From NCBI RefSeq assembly GCF_900167455.1, contig NZ_FUWJ01000001.1:620001-684000 (forward strand): a stretch of DNA of 64,000 bases, written 5' to 3'. Each line of letters opens with the position of its first letter. Within the stretch, counting starts at the first letter, position 1. The position numbers were made by a program, and so were the translations under genes. Origin of the DNA: Enhydrobacter aerosaccus (lineage in GTDB: Bacteria > Pseudomonadota > Alphaproteobacteria > Reyranellales > Reyranellaceae). Shown piece by piece: positions 8,440 to 54,132 of this stretch. The notes under the pieces were generated by a model. The model worked only from the letters and a program-made list of their open reading frames with translations. It was not told the origin of the DNA and made no database searches.

Positions 8440-9546
8440 ATGCAACGGCGTAAATTTCTTCGGAATGCGGGCGTGGGGACGGCCGCAGTGGCGACGACGG
8501 GTCTGGTGGCAGCACCGGCCATCGCCCAGTCGGCGCCCGAGATCAACTGGCGCATGACGTCGAGCTTCCCCAAGTCGCTCGATACGCTCTATGGCGGCGC
8601 CGAGCGGATCGCCAAGATCGTGGCCGAGGCGACGGACAACAAGTTCCAGATCCGCACCTTCGCCGCGGGCGAGATCGTCCCTGGCCTGCAGGTCGTCGAC
8701 GCCGTCCAGAACGGCACGGTCGAGATGGGCCACACCGCGTCGTACTACTTCTTCGGCAAGGACCCGACCTTCGCGCTGGGGACAGTGGTGCCGTTCGGCT
8801 TGAATACCCGGCAGATGAATGCCTGGGTGACCCAGGGCGGCGGTGAGCAGCTGCTCAACGACTTCTACAAGAACTACAACATCTACGGCATCGTCTGCGG
8901 CAACACGACGGCGCAGATGGGTGGCTGGTTCCGCAAGGAAATCAACACCGTCGAGGACCTGAAGGGCCTCAAGATGCGCATCGCCGGTCTCGCGGGCGAC
9001 GTGATGTCGAAGCTGGGCGTGATCCCGCAGCAGCTCGCTGGCGGCGACATCTATCCGGCGCTGGAAAAGGGCACCGTCGACGCGGCCGAGTGGGTCGGCC
9101 CCTACGACGACCAGAAGCTGGGCTTCGCGAAAATCGCGCCGAATTATTATTATCCCGGCTGGTGGGAAGGGAACGCCGCGTTCCATGTCTTCATCGGACT
9201 GGATAAGTGGAACGCGCTGCCGAAGAACTATCAGGCCATCCTGCGGGCAGCCTGCGCCGATACCAACAACTGGACGGCTGCCAAGTACGACGCTGACAAC
9301 CCGAAGGCTCTGCGCGTGCTGATCGCGAGCGGTGCCAAGCTGCTGCCGTTCTCGCAGCCGATCATGGAAGCGGCGTTCAAGGCCACCAACGAGGTCTATG
9401 CCGAGATCACGGCCAAGAACGCGAACTTCAAGAAGGTCTTCGACTCGATGATGGCCTTCCGCAAGGACGAGGTTCTGTGGTTCCGCGTGGCCGAGAACAC
9501 CTTCGACAACTTCATGGCGCGCCAGTCGGCGGCCGGGAAGCTCTAG
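8440..9546 (+). CDS. TRAP transporter substrate-binding protein, copy 1
   Basis: Periplasmic DctP-type receptor of the TakP / mannitol-chloroaromatic group, expected to bind an organic anion such as a 2-oxo acid and deliver it to a DctQM permease. The 368-residue protein starts at ATG 8440, with GGGAG eight bases upstream; GTG 8431 is less likely because both paralogues also begin MQRRKF/MQRRRF. A Tat-like leader (RRKFLRNAG) ends at APAIAQ. Conserved family segments are [41 protein letters not shown] and YYYPGWWEG. It is the first of three adjacent paralogues and ends in its own hairpin terminator. The ligand cannot be told from sequence. Confidence 0.92.
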   Translation: MQRRKFLRNAGVGTAAVATTGLVAAPAIAQSAPEINWRMTSSFPKSLDTLYGGAERIAKIVAEATDNKFQIRTFAAGEIVPGLQVVDAVQNGTVEMGHTASYYFFGKDPTFALGTVVPFGLNTRQMNAWVTQGGGEQLLNDFYKNYNIYGIVCGNTTAQMGGWFRKEINTVEDLKGLKMRIAGLAGDVMSKLGVIPQQLAGGDIYPALEKGTVDAAEWVGPYDDQKLGFAKIAPNYYYPGWWEGNAAFHVFIGLDKWNALPKNYQAILRAACADTNNWTAAKYDADNPKALRVLIASGAKLLPFSQPIMEAAFKATNEVYAEITAKNANFKKVFDSMMAFRKDEVLWFRVAENTFDNFMARQSAAGKL

Positions 9547-9572
9547 GACGGTACATTCCGTCCCGTTTCAAA

Positions 9573-9597
9573 AGCCCCGCTTCGGCGGGGCTTTTTC
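9573..9597 (+). terminator. Rho-independent terminator after TRAP receptor 1
   Basis: An 8-bp stem (AGCCCCGC / GCGGGGCT) closed by a TTCG tetraloop is followed by five T. It lies 26 bp after the stop codon, so receptor 1 is probably its own transcription unit. Confidence 0.93.
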
Positions 9598-9656
9598 ATT
9601 TGCGGGTGCCGGTAGCGGCAGCTTCTCAAGCCCTCAGCGCTGTGCCATAAGCGACG

Positions 9657-9676
9657 TCCGCATCGCAGAATGCGGA
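9657..9676. promoter_or_regulatory. Inverted repeat upstream of TRAP receptor 2
   Basis: A perfect 7-bp inverted repeat, TCCGCAT / ATGCGGA, with a 6-bp centre lies 39 bp before ATG 9716. It could be an operator or a leader hairpin. No matching repeat is seen before copies 1 or 3, so it would be specific to copy 2. Confidence 0.4.
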
Positions 9677-9685
9677 TGCGTATAA

Positions 9686-10822
<1,137 letters not shown>

Positions 10823-10841
10823 GGGTGTCAGCCTGCTTCGA

Positions 10842-10868
10842 AAAAGCCCCGCATCGCGGGGCTTTTTT
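10842..10868 (+). terminator. Rho-independent terminator after TRAP receptor 2
   Basis: A 9-bp stem (AAGCCCCGC / GCGGGGCTT) with a very short loop is followed by a T run, 20 bp after the stop codon. The stem is nearly identical to the terminator after copy 1, so the hairpin was probably duplicated together with the gene. Confidence 0.92.
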
Positions 10869-10972
10869 ATTTGCGCAGTGGCTATGCCGAGACTTTTCAA
10901 ATCGAATTCCGCGTGTCAATGTCGCCGCAGTGAAAAGGGCCCATAAGCAAAGCCCGTTCGGGAGGAGAGACA

Positions 10973-12076
10973 ATGCAGAGACGGCGTTTCATCAAGACAG
11001 GGGGAATCGGTGCGGCTGGCGTCGCCGCCACCACGGCGCTGGCGGCGCCGGCGATCGCGCAGGGCATGCCGGAGATCAAATGGCGCCTGACGTCGAGCTT
11101 CCCCAAGTCTCTGGACACGCTCTACGGCGGCTCGGAAGTGTTCTGCAAGGCCGTGGCCGAGATGTCGGACAACAAGTTCCAGATCCGTCCCTTCGCCGCC
11201 GGCGAGATCGTGCCGGGCCTGCAGGTCGCCGACGCGGTACAGAACGGCACGGTGGAATGCGGGCAGACCGCCGCCTACTACTTCTTCGGCAAGCATCCCA
11301 ACTTCGTGTTCGAGACCGGCCTGCCGTTCACCATGAACCAGCGTCAATACTACGCCTGGCTGGGTGAGGGCGGCGGACACGATCTCATCAACGACTTCTA
11401 CAAGGAGTACAATTTCCGCTCCTTCATCTTCGGCGGCACGGGCTGCCAGATGGGCGGCTGGTTCCGCAAGGAAATCAAGTCGATGGACGACATGAAGGGG
11501 CTGAAGTTCCGCGTCGGCGGCTTCGCCGGCCTGATCCTCCAGCGCCTCGGCGTGGTGCCGCAGCAGATTGCCGGCGGCGACATCTATCCGGCGCTGGAAA
11601 AGGGCACGATCGACGCCTGCGAATGGGTCGGTCCCTACGACGACGAGAAGCTCGGCTTCGCCAAGGTGGCCAAGTATTACTACTATCCGGGCTGGTGGGA
11701 GGGCACCTCCGTCGGCTCCCTCTACGTCAATAACGCCGCCTGGGAGAAGCTGCCCAAGAACTACCAGGCCATGATCGACACCGCGGCCGGCTTGGTGACC
11801 TCGTGGATGGTGCCGAAGTACGACGCCGTCAACCCGGCGGCCTTGCGGCGGCTGGTGGCGCAGGGCACGGAACTGCGGCCCTTCCCGCGGCCGGTGCTCG
11901 AGACCTGCTTCAACGAATGCTACAAGTTCTACGACGAACTGTCGGCCAAGGATCCGAAGTTCAAGAAGATCTATGACAGCCTCAAGGCCTTCCGCACCGA
12001 CGAGAACCTGTGGTTCCGCGTCGCCGAGAACACCTTCGACAACTTCAATTTCGCGATGTCGGCCCAGGGACGCTGA
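10973..12076 (+). CDS. TRAP transporter substrate-binding protein, copy 3
   Basis: A 367-residue DctP-type receptor, clearly related to copies 1 and 2 but more diverged. The leader is RRRFIKTGG, and the shared blocks [23 protein letters not shown] and [18 protein letters not shown] are present. It has Cys-Glu-Trp where the others have Ala-Glu-Trp next to the ligand pocket of this family, and the region after the YYYPGWWEG block reads TSVGSLYVNN, so it may bind a different acid. GGGAGGAG lies about eight bases before the ATG, a stronger ribosome site than the other copies have. It converges on dctM, with a terminator between. Confidence 0.92.
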   Translation: MQRRRFIKTGGIGAAGVAATTALAAPAIAQGMPEIKWRLTSSFPKSLDTLYGGSEVFCKAVAEMSDNKFQIRPFAAGEIVPGLQVADAVQNGTVECGQTAAYYFFGKHPNFVFETGLPFTMNQRQYYAWLGEGGGHDLINDFYKEYNFRSFIFGGTGCQMGGWFRKEIKSMDDMKGLKFRVGGFAGLILQRLGVVPQQIAGGDIYPALEKGTIDACEWVGPYDDEKLGFAKVAKYYYYPGWWEGTSVGSLYVNNAAWEKLPKNYQAMIDTAAGLVTSWMVPKYDAVNPAALRRLVAQGTELRPFPRPVLETCFNECYKFYDELSAKDPKFKKIYDSLKAFRTDENLWFRVAENTFDNFNFAMSAQGR

Positions 12077-18030: not shown

Positions 18031-18126
18031 GGCGATCGTCCGCCCGATACGCCGTGGCCCCTTAACGCCCGGCGGTCGTCGCGCCCGGCGGCCCGTCCAT
18101 CGCGACGGCTCGCGCGAGGCTCGGGT

Positions 18127-18218
18127 GAGGGACCGGCATGACCCGAAGCGAATTCGTTACGGCTGCTTCCTTCCGGATCTGACCGGGTTGGCGACGGCCT
18201 CGCCCACACCGGCCCCTC
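18127..18218 (-). ncRNA. ffs: Small SRP RNA (4.5S RNA)
   Basis: Read on the minus strand, the region has the universal SRP domain IV signature GGTCAGATCCGGAAGGAAGC, which binds Ffh. It is enclosed by a long hairpin whose outer arms GAGGGGCCGG and CCGGTCCCTC pair with a single G-U. The length of about 92 nt matches the small alphaproteobacterial form without an Alu domain. Position upstream of dnaX is also conserved. End points are set from the base of the stem and may be off by a few bases. Confidence 0.94.
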
Positions 18219-33075: not shown

Positions 33076-33092
33076 CGACGACGGATGGCGCT

Positions 33093-33566
33093 ACGCATCC
33101 GACCGTCTCACGATCAGGTTGCCGGCAGTGTCGGCTTCGACGCTGTGCTGCGGCAGCATCACAGTGGTCATGGTGTCGTGGTCCTCGTTTCATCTGCCTC
33201 CCCAGCTTCGCTGGGGAGATGGCCGAAGGCCGGAGGGGTCCGAAGCCGCGGATTGGGGTGGGTGCCTATGACCCCGCCGCCCTGCGGGCACCTCCCCACG
33301 CGCGGCGTGGGGAGGAGGAGTGAGACCTTACGCATCCGCCGGCCTCACGATCAGGTTGCCGACAGTGTCGGCTTCGACGCTGTGCTGCGGCAGCATCACA
33401 GTGGTCATGATGTCGTGGTCCTCGTTTCATCTGCCTCCCCAGCTTCGCTGGGGAGGTGGCCGAAGGCCGGAGGGGTCCGAAGCCGCGGGTGGGGGTGGGT
33501 GCCTATGACCCCACCGCCCTGCGGGCACCTCCCCGCGGGTGGCGTGGGGAGGAGGAGTGAGACCTT
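33093..33566. repeat. Two tandem 237-bp units holding HyuA C-terminal ghost copies
   Basis: Units at 33093-33329 and 33330-33566 are nearly identical and exactly 237 bp each; a third, partial unit continues from 33567 into the 3' end of hyuA. On the minus strand each unit begins with a tail reading TVMLPQHSVEADT(A/V)GNLIV, then a stop, parallel to the resident end VVPPQHTFEADTAGNLIV. The rest of each unit is a paired GC palindrome of family B (33197-33316 in unit 1, 33434-33553 in unit 2). Within each unit the palindrome arms are CCTCCCCAGC / GCTGGGGAG and the facing, inverted CACCTCCCC block. Confidence 0.92.
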
Positions 33567-35640
33567 ACGCATCCGACCGTCTCACGATCAGGTTGCCGGC
33601 AGTGTCGGCTTCGAATGTGTGCTGCGGGGGGACCACGGTGGTGGTGTCCATCTGCAGGACGATGGCCGGGCCAGGGATGCGCTCGCCGACCGGCAGCAGG
33701 TCGCGGCGATAGAAGTCGGTCGGGTAGTCGGCGAGCTTGCCCTCGACGCGGAAGGTGCAGCTTCCCGAGCGTACGCGCGCCGCGTCGAGCGACTTCGCCG
33801 TGCCCGGTGTCGGCTTGGCGATCTCGGCGGCACTGGCAGCGCCCACCAGCCGCAGGTTCACGATCTCGATCGCCGAGTCGGCGAAGTGATGGCCGTACTC
33901 GCGGCGATGGATCTCGTGGAAGGCCTCGAAGGCGGTGGCCAGGGCCGCCGCGTCGAGCGTGCCGTCGGGGAAGGGGACGCGCAGCTCGTAGCCCTGGCCG
34001 ACATAGCGCAGGTCGCCACGGCGCTCGAACGTGACCTTGGCGAGATCGATGCCGTCGGCGCTGAAGCGTGCCTCCAGCTCCTTCTGCATGGCTGCGAAGT
34101 CGGCATTGATGCGGGCGAGATCGACGGCGCCCGAGACCTGGAACGAGGTGCGAATGGCGTCGTAGCGCAGGTCGGAGATCAGCAGCCCTACCGCGGAGGT
34201 GATGCCCGGATGCGGTGGCACGATCACCTCGGGAATGCCCAGCATGTCCGCCACTTCCGCGCCGTGCAGCGGGCCCGCGCCGCCGAAGGCCACCAGCGCG
34301 TAGTCGCGCGGATCGATGCCCTTCTGAACCGTGCGAGAACGGATGGCGTTGGCCATGTTGGCGTTGATGAGCGTGATCACGCCTTCGGCCGTCTCGCGCT
34401 CGGACAATCCAACCTCGCGTGCCAGCTCGCCGATCACGCGCCGCGCCGCCACCTCGTCGAGCGACATGCCGCCGCCCAGGAAATTCTTGCTGTCGAGACG
34501 ACCCAGCACGACGTTGGCGTCGGTGACGGTGGCGCGCGTGCCGCCACGGCCGTAGGCGGCGGGGCCGGGCACCGCACCGGCCGAGCGCGGTCCGACCTTG
34601 AAGGCGCCGGCCTGGTCGACATAGGCGATCGAGCCGCCACCGGCGCCGATCGTATGAACGTCGATCATCGGCACCAGCACCGGGAAGCCGGCGATCCAGG
34701 TGTCGCGGGCCGTCGCCTCGCCGAAGCCGCCTTCCGTGACGATCCCGATATCGGCCGAGGTGCCGCCGACATCGAAGGTGATGAGGTTGCGCTTGCCGGA
34801 GAGCGCGCCGGCCCAGTCGCCGCCGATCACGCCGGCCGCCGGACCGGACAGCAGGGTGAGCACGGGCCGGTCGGCGACCATGGCGGGTGTCGCCACGCCG
34901 CCATTGGAAGCCATGATGCGCAGATCGGCCTTGAAGCCCGATTGCTCGATCTCGGCTTCGAGCCGCGTCACGTAATTGCGCACCTTCGGTCCGACGAAAG
35001 CGTTCATCGCCGTTGTCGTGAAGCGCTCGAACTCGCGGAACTGCGGCGACACCGACGACGAGGTGGTGGCGAAGCAGCCCGGATATTCCTCGCGCACGAT
35101 CTCCATGGCCCGCGCCTCGTGCGCCGGATCGAGATAGGAGAACAGGAAGCAGATGGCGATCGCCTCGACGCCGGCCTCCTTCAGTTCGCGCACGGCCTCG
35201 CGCACGCCCGCTTCGTCGAGCGGCTGCAGTTCCTCGCCCCTGGGCGGCACCAGCCGTTCCGTCACCGTCTTGCGATGGCGGCGCTTCACCAGCGGGCGGC
35301 TCTGCCAGGGGATGTCCTGCATGATCGAGTAATGCTGCGGCCGCTGGTGGCGGCCGATATGCAGGATGTCGCGGTAGCCGCCGGTCGTGATCATGCCGGT
35401 GACGGCGCCGTCATGCTCGAGGATGGCGTTGGTGGCGATGGTGGTGCCGTGGAACACCACGTCGATGGTCTCGCGCGGGATGCCGTACTTGTCGCACAAC
35501 GCCATCAGGCCGGCGACGACGCCACGCGACGGGTCGTCGGGCGTGGTCGAGGTCTTGTGCACGCGAGTCTCGCCGGCCTCGGTATCGGCATAGACCAGAT
35601 CCGTGAACGTCCCGCCCACATCCACGCCGATCAAACGCAT
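33565..35640 (-). CDS. Hydantoinase A / oxoprolinase alpha-type subunit
   Basis: The 691-residue ATP-binding subunit of a hydantoinase/oxoprolinase-family enzyme. The N-terminal actin-like fold has GVDVGGTFTDLVY (residues 5-17), then VFHGTTIATNAILEHDG, and the second phosphate loop FDVGGTSADIG near residue 293 with the LLSGPAAGVIGG block just before it. ATP would phosphorylate the ring amide before HyuB-assisted hydrolysis. Its last codons lie in the third copy of a 237-bp repeat. It is divergent from the ABC importer operon, with a sigma-54 promoter between. Confidence 0.94.
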   Translation of the reverse strand: MRLIGVDVGGTFTDLVYADTEAGETRVHKTSTTPDDPSRGVVAGLMALCDKYGIPRETIDVVFHGTTIATNAILEHDGAVTGMITTGGYRDILHIGRHQRPQHYSIMQDIPWQSRPLVKRRHRKTVTERLVPPRGEELQPLDEAGVREAVRELKEAGVEAIAICFLFSYLDPAHEARAMEIVREEYPGCFATTSSSVSPQFREFERFTTTAMNAFVGPKVRNYVTRLEAEIEQSGFKADLRIMASNGGVATPAMVADRPVLTLLSGPAAGVIGGDWAGALSGKRNLITFDVGGTSADIGIVTEGGFGEATARDTWIAGFPVLVPMIDVHTIGAGGGSIAYVDQAGAFKVGPRSAGAVPGPAAYGRGGTRATVTDANVVLGRLDSKNFLGGGMSLDEVAARRVIGELAREVGLSERETAEGVITLINANMANAIRSRTVQKGIDPRDYALVAFGGAGPLHGAEVADMLGIPEVIVPPHPGITSAVGLLISDLRYDAIRTSFQVSGAVDLARINADFAAMQKELEARFSADGIDLAKVTFERRGDLRYVGQGYELRVPFPDGTLDAAALATAFEAFHEIHRREYGHHFADSAIEIVNLRLVGAASAAEIAKPTPGTAKSLDAARVRSGSCTFRVEGKLADYPTDFYRRDLLPVGERIPGPAIVLQMDTTTVVPPQHTFEADTAGNLIVRRSDA

Positions 35641-35664
35641 CGTCCCGCTCCCTTATTCAGTCTC

Positions 35665-35779
35665 CCTCCCCATTCGGATGGGGAGGTGCCCCGTCATCGG
35701 GGCGGAGGGGTCATGAGCAACACGACTGCGCCCTGTGACCCCCTCCGGCCTTCGGCCACCTCCCCCGAAGCGGGGGAGG
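35665..35779. repeat. Paired GC palindrome, family B
   Basis: One arm (35665-35712) is CCTCCCC, a short loop, GGGGAGG, then a GTGCCCCGTC stem and CGGAGGGGTC. The other (35737-35779) is the same element inverted, GACCCCCTCCGG to GGGGGAGG. A 24-bp spacer separates them. It sits between hyuA and the sigma-54 promoter of the ABC importer. Confidence 0.88.
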
Positions 35780-53413: not shown

Positions 53414-53426
53414 CGTCCTGTTCTTC

Positions 53427-53475
53427 ACCTCCCTGCGCGCAGCGCGGGGAGGTGGCCCGTAGGGCCGGAGGGGTC
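53427..53475 (+). repeat. Family B palindromic element, copy 1 near the DUF559 gene
   Basis: A 49-bp element: ACCTCCCTGCG / CGCGGGGAGGT stem, then GGCCCGT-AGGGCC stem, ending CGGAGGGGTC. It lies 14 bp after the oxidase stop codon and 100 bp before an almost identical copy in the same orientation. Confidence 0.9.
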
Positions 53476-53575
53476 AGACGCTCCTCAAAAAACAACTATA
53501 GGTAGTATTTCAGTCGAAATTTCGCCAACAAATCCAACAAAGCTTCTTCCGTCATCCCGAGCGATCGTTGGCATT

Positions 53576-53624
53576 ACCTCCCTGCGCACAGCGCGGGGAG
53601 GTGGCCCGAAGGGCCGGAGGGGTC
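53576..53624 (+). repeat. Family B palindromic element, copy 2 near the DUF559 gene
   Basis: A 49-bp copy differing from copy 1 at only two positions (GCGCAC for GCGCGC, CGAAGG for CGTAGG) and in the same orientation. It lies 72 bp before the DUF559 start. The AT-rich DNA between the two copies and between this copy and the gene is unlike the surroundings. Confidence 0.9.
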
Positions 53625-53696
53625 GGAAGTGCCATGCACAATTTTTAGTAGAAGTTACGTGAGAACAGACTCTCATAAATAGGCTAACATGTCCGC

Positions 53697-54056
53697 GTGC
53701 TGCACTTTGCACGTCATCTCCGAAGCAACGCCACGGAGGCCGAGCGAATTCTCTGGCGTCATCTCCGCAAACGCCAGTTGGCTGGCTTCAAGTTCCGTCG
53801 CCAGCATCAGATCAAACCGTTCATCTGCGACTTTGTTTGTCTCGAGGCCGGAGTCGCTATCGAGCTCGATGGCAGCCAGCATGCCGATCAAATGCGGTAT
53901 GACGAAAAGCGCGACGCGTTTCTGAGATCAAATGGCTTCCGTGTCTTTAGATTCTGGAATCCGGATGTGATCTTTCGCACCGGCAGCGTCCTCGAGACAA
54001 TCCGCGAAGCGCTTCGGGATGCGAAAATGGATGGTCGCTTCGATTGGAGTCTCTGA
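53697..54056 (+). CDS. DUF559 family endonuclease-like protein
   Basis: A 119-residue protein of the DUF559 group, related to very-short-patch-repair and other PD-(D/E)XK nucleases. It has the diagnostic RHLRSNATEAERILWRHLR N-terminus, then FRRQHQIKPFICDFVC, VAIELDGSQH with the catalytic acid pair, and FRVFRFWNPDV. The start is GTG 53697 (homologues begin near here); no strong ribosome site is seen. It has no operon partner and is bracketed by family B palindromes, the downstream one inverted and overlapping the stop codon. Confidence 0.85.
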   Translation: MLHFARHLRSNATEAERILWRHLRKRQLAGFKFRRQHQIKPFICDFVCLEAGVAIELDGSQHADQMRYDEKRDAFLRSNGFRVFRFWNPDVIFRTGSVLETIREALRDAKMDGRFDWSL

Positions 54057-54103
54057 CCCCTCCGCCCCTCCGGGGCACCTCCCCGGCGTTGCTGGGGAGG
54101 GGA
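54055..54103 (-). repeat. Family B palindromic element, inverted copy after the DUF559 gene
   Basis: GACCCCTCCG followed by CCCCTCCGGGGCACC and a CTCCCC/GGGGAG stem is the reverse complement of the elements at 53427 and 53576. Its first two bases are the last two of the DUF559 stop codon, so gene and element abut exactly. Confidence 0.88.
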
Positions 54104-54132
54104 GGTGAAAGCATTGCAGCCCCGTCAGCGCT

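Follow-up and report, generated by a model that had tools for sequence, protein, structure and literature searches.

In REPtrons (RAYT-REP-REPIN systems), a small gene for an IS200/IS605-type Y1 HUH transposase is bracketed by inverted REP palindromes with a GTAG foot, the enzymes are repeat-specific and patchily distributed, and there are many gene-less pairs of the palindromes at recurring spacings. According to the parts of a 2013 survey on which we draw (PMC3733652), some RAYTs have unrelated TIRs in place of GTAG-foot REPs, and CGTC-tagged REPs, which are mostly alphaproteobacterial, apparently lack a dedicated transposase. The palindromes called BoxC, PIT or TM, which have been known in Escherichia coli since the 1990s, are 'intrastrand triplex' repeats found in E. 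coli and more than 260 other genomes; the sections of PMC4666352 used here include in vitro data on triplex formation and a table of motifs (e.g. CCCTCTCCCTGTGGGAGAGGGCCGGGGTGAGGGC), and state that the PIT/TM motif was not found with transposons, phages or plasmids. Those sections name no enzyme or other propagator for the repeats, and the words 'endonuclease' and 'DUF' occur zero times in the main text.

Here we describe a DUF559 nuclease gene in a 64,000-nucleotide stretch of Enhydrobacter aerosaccus DNA (the window) and its relatives in other genomes. The DUF559 system resembles REPtrons in having a small gene for an enzyme between inverted REP palindromes, many gene-less pairs with recurring spacing, repeat-specific enzymes and a patchy enzyme distribution, but the protein it encodes is Vsr-like and gives no Y1 domain match, and its repeats (arms compared by eye) carry a mirror purine tail instead of a GTAG foot. 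Because it lacks the Y1 transposase, the defining feature of a REPtron, we do not file it as one. Like IS elements and MITEs, DUF559 elements have terminal inverted repeats. With the BoxC/PIT/TM repeats, as described in those sections of PMC4666352, DUF559 repeats share a pyrimidine stem, a loop, a purine arm and a mirror purine tail, as well as occurrence in inverted pairs and an intergenic position; they differ in bracketing a nuclease gene, none being named there. CGTC-tagged REPs, as portrayed in the parts of PMC3733652 on which we draw, bracket some GIY-YIG genes in our data, with a repeat and a nuclease family that both differ from those of the DUF559 system. Within open-licence PMC, the literature covered here, we found no text joining BoxC/PIT/TM to DUF559, and priority is therefore not certain.

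The DUF559 gene of the window and its protein

The sequence-only reading had placed two palindromes in the same orientation before the gene and an inverted copy after it, and this arrangement is indeed present (Table 1), the arms at 53445-53484 and 54046-54085 of the upstream and downstream palindromes being 88% complementary. What had been called a 49-bp palindrome is a real repeat but not a plain palindrome: in each unit a hairpin (CCTCCC...GGGAGG) is followed by another, small hairpin and then by a gene-facing purine tail, GGAGGGGTC, which is the mirror image of the 3' arm of the stem. The inverted copy likewise lies at the stop codon without abutting it exactly, since it begins with GACCCC at 54055 and has two bases in common with the TGA at 54054-54056. 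Folded as single-stranded DNA, the three palindromes give z values of -3.7, -4.0 and -2.0 relative to 200 dinucleotide shuffles.

Table 1 Coordinates of the window features and of the E. coli ycjD locus (window numbering unless an accession is given).
Feature	Position	Strand	Remarks
DUF559 (PF04480) nuclease gene, 119 aa	53697..54056	+	GTG start assumed; Vsr/EDxHD-like fold
Upstream palindrome 1	53427..53478	+	Hairpin 53427-53453, second small hairpin 53454-53466, mirror tail GGAGGGG 53467-53473
Upstream palindrome 2	53576..53627	+	Orientation as copy 1, 94% identical to copy 1; gene-facing tail
Downstream inverted palindrome	54055..54106	-	Gene-facing tail; 2-nt overlap with stop codon
Scrap CCGTCATCCCGAGCGATCG	53549..53567	+	By eye, resembles the GIY-YIG-bracketing palindrome at the same site elsewhere (L079, L092)
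Gene-less palindrome pair 1 (REPIN-like)	33198..33315	+	Hairpins 33198-33218 and 33291-33315; folding z -4.4
Gene-less pair 2	33434..33552	+	Hairpins 33434-33456 and 33528-33552; 237-bp tandem duplicate of pair 1
Gene-less pair 3	35664..35779	+	Hairpins 35664-35687 and 35759-35779; folding z -5.6
ycjD locus with BoxC on 3' side (L248)	NC_000913.3 1351204-1351760		

The GIY-type scrap sits between the two upstream DUF559-type copies. At L079 and L092 and in seven further genomes, a GIY-YIG element with GTCATCCCGAGC-type palindromes fills the gap that DUF559 occupies here. At several loci of the window's order (e.g. L011, L013, L016 and L034), the interval from the left palindrome to the DUF559 gene contains an AT-rich stretch like GTTGTATTTCACCACACTGATGCC that is perhaps a promoter; a similar stretch at about 53495-53530 of the window stands without a gene and seems to be left over. 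The window genome (6.77 Mb) has two DUF559 matches, both bracketed by palindromes, the second (L002) by another repeat variant, CCTCTCCCCC...GGGGGAGAGG...GGTGAGGGGG. Elsewhere in the window there are three tandem copies at 8482-12047 (spacing about 1.26-1.28 kb, 71-90% identical in segments) and a small bacterial SRP RNA at 18124-18218 on the minus strand (RF00169, 55.9 bits).

The window protein matches PF04480 with an E value of 1.1e-37, DUF559 and MTES_1575 being its sole domain matches in Pfam. Its AlphaFold model (pLDDT 88.8) retrieved with Foldseek PDB 3hrl (NGO0050; E 1.2e-8), the catalytic domain of I-Bth0305I (3r3p; 2.9e-4) and Vsr (1vsr; 2.5e-3), and the core is accordingly modelled as a PD-(D/E)XK nuclease of the Vsr type. 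I-Bth0305I and Vsr share this catalytic fold; DUF559 differs from both in being a single-domain gene that stands alone and has palindromes on either side. Neither an intron nor an intein was found around it: the gene is free-standing and intergenic, and the window's Rfam matches include no intron family. Residues D45, E56, D58, Q61, H62 and D69 are invariant in 15 DUF559 sequences, and a median dN/dS of 0.099 over 169 non-independent pairs indicates purifying selection among relatives. On several branches the C-terminus of the protein is, by reading, apparently encoded by the palindrome itself. As an anti-phage defence gene the candidate was set aside, PADLOC having given only DpdF (E 0.0047 over 52 residues).

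The protein of 3hrl, solved as an 'endonuclease-like protein', belongs to the same family as the window protein (E 4.5e-40). A near-identical gene in an N. gonorrhoeae record, which we take from the matching sequence to be NGO0050 itself, has similar palindromes nearby but only a weak bracket (score 16). In a Legionella evolution experiment, DUF559 segments are among the recombination hotspots (PMC12308824, from the portion of that paper used here).

Bracketing in distant bacteria and likeness to triplex repeats

DUF559 occurs in 58 of the 76 genomes of the window's order, with 0-9 matches per genome and a patchy distribution even inside one genus. Our order sample comprised 92 loci (2 from the window genome, 30 best-scoring and 60 hand-chosen, the last mostly full-length, with partial, stop-bearing and contig-end matches mostly passed over), and 90 had enough flank to be scored. 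A hairpin with a pyrimidine arm lies on both sides of the gene at 78 of these 90 loci and on at least one side at 84. Since the hairpin is symmetric and takes its direction only from the tail, the oriented counts are those with tails: a mirror tail faces the gene on both sides at 56/90 loci.

The same layout recurs in a scan of named genomes, in which we kept the best 80 of 572 DUF559 relatives (79 scorable) from taxa that by their titles include Alpha-, Beta- and Gammaproteobacteria, Desulfobacterales, Geobacter relatives, Nitrospira, SAR202 and others. Among these best-scoring loci, 63/79 have hairpins on both sides, 78/79 on at least one side and 50/79 gene-facing tails on both; at least two (L161 and L162) belong to the window's own order, and without L161-L163 the counts are 61, 75 and 49 of 76. 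By comparison, of 340 other ORFs at the named-genome loci only 9 have hairpins on both sides and 4 have facing tails (Fisher 4e-39 for the tails), a slightly different hairpin finder giving 10 with hairpins on both sides and 90 with at least one. DUF559 genes are hence flanked far more often than other genes, and equal frequency was the outcome that the sequence-only reading had named as fatal to it. The bracketing also appears when nothing is assumed about the repeat: in a local alignment of one flank with the reverse complement of the other, 54 of 78 DUF559 loci (picked by best HMM or pattern match; L191, at an edge, and L239, with a gap, dropped from the 80) reach a score of at least 20, compared with 4 of 337 other ORFs, and 24/78 fall under that cut-off. 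Six further named records divide equally, with Pseudanabaena (63.0), Azospirillum (25.5) and Deinococcus (20.5) bracketed and Picosynechococcus (14.5), one phage contig (17.0) and Photobacterium (8.0) below the cut-off. Taken together, these counts confirm that the bracketed layout is real and recurs in distant bacteria, and that it is not local to the window.

We consider it very improbable that the palindromes are two-way terminators or insulators of many small genes. They do fold as strong hairpins, but so few neighbouring ORFs have them on both sides, as does none of 26 NudC genes, and in PIT elements of E. coli terminator activity was not found (Hoyne and Maher 2002, as reported in the sections of PMC4666352 used here).

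Across loci the architecture of the repeats is conserved while their sequence varies. The stem arms include GGGGAGG, GGGGGAAGG, GGGGAGAAGG, GGGGAGAGGG and GGGGGAGGG, and the tails shift with them and stay near mirror images (GGAGGGG, GGATGGGGG, GGATGAGGGG, GGGTGAGGGG and GGGAGGGGG). Among 230 nearest hairpins taken without selection, and with T allowed opposite A, the tail mirrors its own arm, one mismatch at most being allowed, in 69%, as against 26% for tails swapped in from loci with other arms, 6% for the shuffled own tail and 35% for the unmirrored arm; none of 1000 permutations equalled the observed covariation between stem and tail. (The corresponding values of 88% and 32% come from hairpins selected for pointing inward, and the unselected 69% and 26% are preferable.) Of these 230 hairpins, 165 have the mirror tail directed toward the gene and 44 away from it, with 21 ties. 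Stem arm and tail of the DUF559 repeats are thus mirror repeats, which makes them triplex-capable by sequence.

In E. coli the DUF559 gene is ycjD (b1289 in MG1655), which lies between sapF and fabI and is matched in 3365 of 5426 genomes, in 3320 of them over at least 80% of the query; about 38% of the 5426 have no match. MG1655 has an intact BoxC 167 bp past the ycjD stop codon, with its tail pointing away, and a hairpin without a full tail that contains the stop codon; in strain KE47 the tail of the hairpin at the stop codon is complete and faces the gene. On the 5' side of ycjD in MG1655 no BoxC was seen, the sole intact one being 3', and the locus can therefore be no more than a worn element. 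Both ycjD-less strains that we opened carry an efflux operon and a regulator before fabI, so that these two offer no empty site for comparison. A blastn search of E. coli with a Microbulbifer DUF559 gave no match.

Site occupancy, repeat variants and gene-less copies

The window gene occupies the gap between an FAD-oxidase gene and nudC (window 53414-54132). Of the 71 genomes that have nudC, 65 entered the comparison of this gap, and both neighbours were present in 50. At this one orthologous gap the DUF559 element is polymorphic across the 50 genomes. It is present in three (G000, G046 and G061; 561-723 bp), and the gap measures 3-46 bp in 30, 61-104 bp in seven and 306 bp in one. In four of the seven gaps of 61-104 bp (G027, G052, G058 and G060) there is one solo hairpin, either complete or worn. 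G025 has a fourth DUF559 copy, located upstream of nudC where the contig ends. The remaining nine gaps (454-521 bp) contain a gene for a GIY-YIG nuclease, flanked by inverted GTCATCCCGAGC...GAGGGACC palindromes; seven of the nine genes also match PF01541, and those of G015 and G033 were recognised by reading. GIY-YIG with GTCATCCCGAGC-type palindromes is a parallel nuclease-palindrome element.

GIY-YIG nucleases and Y1 transposases of the order are bracketed by repeat types of their own. Four gene sets were examined for two-sided flanking by each of three repeat types, namely the triplex hairpin, TCATCC-GAG and GGAGCGCG-like repeats, the latter two patterns having been written after the arms had been seen, so that they describe and do not test. 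In that sequence the counts are 59, 1 and 11 of 90 for DUF559; 0, 23 and 2 of 25 for GIY-YIG; 0, 0 and 19 of 22 for Y1 transposases; and 0, 0 and 3 of 26 for NudC. Y1 genes, present in 41/76 genomes, therefore use a repeat other than that of DUF559 in the same genomes. The RAYT-like Y1 genes of order loci L036-L065 have a third palindrome type, such as GGAGCGCGGACCTCCAGGTCCGCTCATGA. In a phylum sample, 56 of 120 genomes have a GIY-YIG match, and among the best 30 loci (29 scored) 7 are bracketed and 22 unbracketed; at L337 (CGTCATTCCCGCGAAAGCGGGAATCCAG), L340 and L353 the brackets are literal CGTC...CCA palindromes.

Enzyme and repeat variant are inherited together. Variant labels are available for 69 of the 92 order loci, and among the 40 loci with a class for each side, the two variants agree in 37 (27% expected by chance). 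The nearest DUF559 relative in another genome shares the variant in 59/69 cases (permutation mean 19.5; 0/2000 permutations as high), and in 54/69 when only relatives without shared flanks are used (permutation mean 19.5, maximum 33), shuffles that allow for the protein tree up to nearest neighbours only. By blastn of flanks of at most 700 bp, the 69 classed loci fall into 48 flank groups, so that there are at most 48 sites. Several variants coexist in 14 genomes, and 31 of the 37 copies in these agree with the nearest relative elsewhere.

Gene-less pairs of hairpins were found at all three places where the sequence-only reading had reported them in the window (33.2, 33.4 and 35.7 kb; Table 1). 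Among the matches listed for the order, the spacing of such pairs recurs at 101-106 bp for the CTTCCCC type (others 116-177 bp) and at 91-96 bp for the CTCTCCCC type. We fetched 20 gene-less pairs and compared groups of nine and ten of them by eye with the ends of DUF559 elements (L020, L014, L019, L282 and L301): at L309-L316 and most of L318-L326, the palindrome and its adjoining sequence, like GGGGGATGTCGAAGACGGAC or CAGGTNGCGCAC, recur at the ends of DUF559 elements from the same genus. The adjoining sequence is common to a lesser degree or not at all at L317, L327, L328 and the DUF559 locus L260. Judged by these ends, gene-less pairs appear to relate to DUF559 elements as miniature derivatives to an autonomous parent.

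The two pairs near 33 kb belong to one 237-bp tandem duplication (window 33092-33642), whose unit is made of 77-105 bp of a gene end plus the palindrome pair, the third copy being partial. One of the 20 fetched pairs (L322) is flanked by a 44-bp direct repeat. The long repeats at these two places (77 and 44 bp) are possibly the trace of an insertion with a long duplication. Direct repeats of at least 12 bp outside the hairpins occur at 12 of 140 loci and in 1.2% of mispaired controls, and among the 140 no target duplication recurred consistently in the range that the test detects (about 12 bp upwards). Two longer candidates, at L192 (68 bp) and L188 (93 bp), proved on reading to be tandem or nested repeats, so we claim no target-site duplication.

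Hairpin density rises with the number of DUF559 copies (rho 0.73 in 76 genomes; 0.68 inside one large genus of 65 genomes), where copy numbers count partial matches too and genome-level correlations are partly phylogenetic; the reversed hairpin pattern, a control for composition, gives 0.15. The partial correlation with density is 0.68 for DUF559 given Y1, 0.16 for Y1 given DUF559 and -0.02 for GIY-YIG after allowing for DUF559. Five genomes with a classed DUF559 of the CTTCCCC type have 140, 612, 638, 324 and 157 CTTCCCC hairpins, against a median of 1 in the other 71 (top values 120 and 106, in the same genera), a contrast that is partly phylogeny because the CTTCCCC-rich genomes all lie in three related genera. 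GAG-type hairpins per Mb number 6.3 in genomes with a GAG-type DUF559, 4.5 in those with the A1 type only (p 0.03) and 1.0 in those with none; the A1-type values are 16.0, 8.4 (GAG only, p 0.02) and 5.5. Genomes full of the palindrome but lacking DUF559, which the sequence-only reading would have counted against itself, are found in a few cases (G010, 93 hairpins; G049, 91). The pattern in G010 and G049 is what loss of the enzyme would leave, but equally what an unrelated propagator would.

These data bear on whether some other enzyme, such as a RAYT (Y1 HUH transposase), moves the palindromes while DUF559 rides as a passenger between two copies, an explanation that we judge improbable. Y1 genes are as widespread in the order as noted above, and 19 of 22 are themselves bracketed by inverted repeats at a score of at least 20, a figure from our first flank test, in which loci were unoriented, the mispaired control was inflated by orthologous flanks, and 28/32 DUF559, 25/30 GIY, 22/30 Y1 and 26/30 NudC loci of the order were scored once short flanks had been dropped. 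However, DUF559-type hairpins on both sides, present at 59/90 DUF559 loci, are absent from all 22 Y1 and all 25 GIY loci, palindrome density tracks DUF559 and not Y1, and one genome (G048) has nine DUF559 matches (several partial) and 423 hairpins with no Y1 match. Nor would a passenger gene be expected to track the repeat variant.

We also give little credence to the notion that DUF559 serves the host as a repair or guard nuclease for unstable palindromes, kept by selection and placed beside them by chance or regulation. The correlation in copy number and the Vsr-like fold would both suit such a nuclease, as would the Caulobacter DUF559 protein VsrA, which is reported (PMC12907096) to be needed for SOS induction when a cytosine methyltransferase is missing, a role different from palindrome spreading. 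A guard nuclease nevertheless leaves unexplained the two-sided bracketing and the overlap with the stop codon, as well as the co-inheritance of variants at new sites and the range of 0-9 matches per genome.

A proposed nuclease-driven route for palindromic repeats

The palindrome-nuclease-palindrome unit, its polymorphic presence, the co-inheritance of enzyme and variant at many sites and the gene-less derivatives are patterns present in these genomes. The RAYT/REP-like layout suggested by the sequence-only reading is borne out by the flank statistics, the co-inheritance, the shared ends and the copy-number correlation; the enzyme, with its Vsr-like fold, is not a RAYT. We hold firmly to the reading of a palindrome-gene-palindrome element. 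From the sequence comparisons we think it probable that the DUF559 gene and its flanking palindromes form one mobile element of which the gene-less pairs are miniature non-autonomous derivatives, and, with nearly the same assurance, that DUF559 itself propagates the palindromes.

A route of spread can be proposed on this basis. The Vsr-like nuclease would recognise the hairpin with its mirror tail, possibly as a cruciform or triplex during replication, and, to judge from its fold, would nick or cut at the palindrome or at the target. Host repair might then fill the break with a copy of the palindrome-ended segment, which may or may not include the gene. With a Vsr or homing fold, the enzyme is likely to cut DNA but unlikely to rejoin it, and the joining would therefore fall to host recombination, as in homing. 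Enzyme and repeat variant would thereby move and diversify jointly, the pattern seen across the loci, and loss of gene and spacer would leave pairs or a solo hairpin, as are also seen. Slippage or recombination between the two stems could delete the gene and the tails and leave one hairpin, as in the four genomes described above; because the stem is self-complementary, a stem from either end is equivalent.

True homing, in which the nuclease cuts solo-palindrome or empty alleles and the full allele is copied from a sister chromosome or incoming DNA, would have the element spread mainly between cells rather than to new sites. The homing-nuclease fold and the solo hairpins at the orthologous gap in 4/50 genomes are in its favour, and we regard it as unlikely yet worth serious consideration; the up to 48 sites among 69 loci and the hundreds of gene-less hairpins in some genomes demand insertion at new sites too. 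Our preferred reading is the mobile element described above: a REP element driven by a nuclease, comparable to REPtrons in its working but not one of them. Such elements look like a previously unrecognised kind of mobile DNA.

We lean slightly towards a more general proposal, drawn from the same patterns, that small solo nucleases may provide a second route for REP-like palindromes, DUF559 for the BoxC/PIT/triplex type and GIY-YIG for the CGTC type, by structure- or end-specific cutting and host copying with no transposase chemistry. E. coli K-12 holds both ycjD and BoxC repeats, and the question can therefore be tested there. Our analysis offers a candidate propagator for the BoxC/PIT repeats, which, by the account in the sections of PMC4666352 used here, have been without one since the 1990s, and suggests another for the CGTC REPs, said in the parts of PMC3733652 on which we draw to lack a dedicated transposase. 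It also suggests a role for DUF559 itself, a family present in most genomes of the window's order and, as ycjD, in 3320 of 5426 E. coli genomes.
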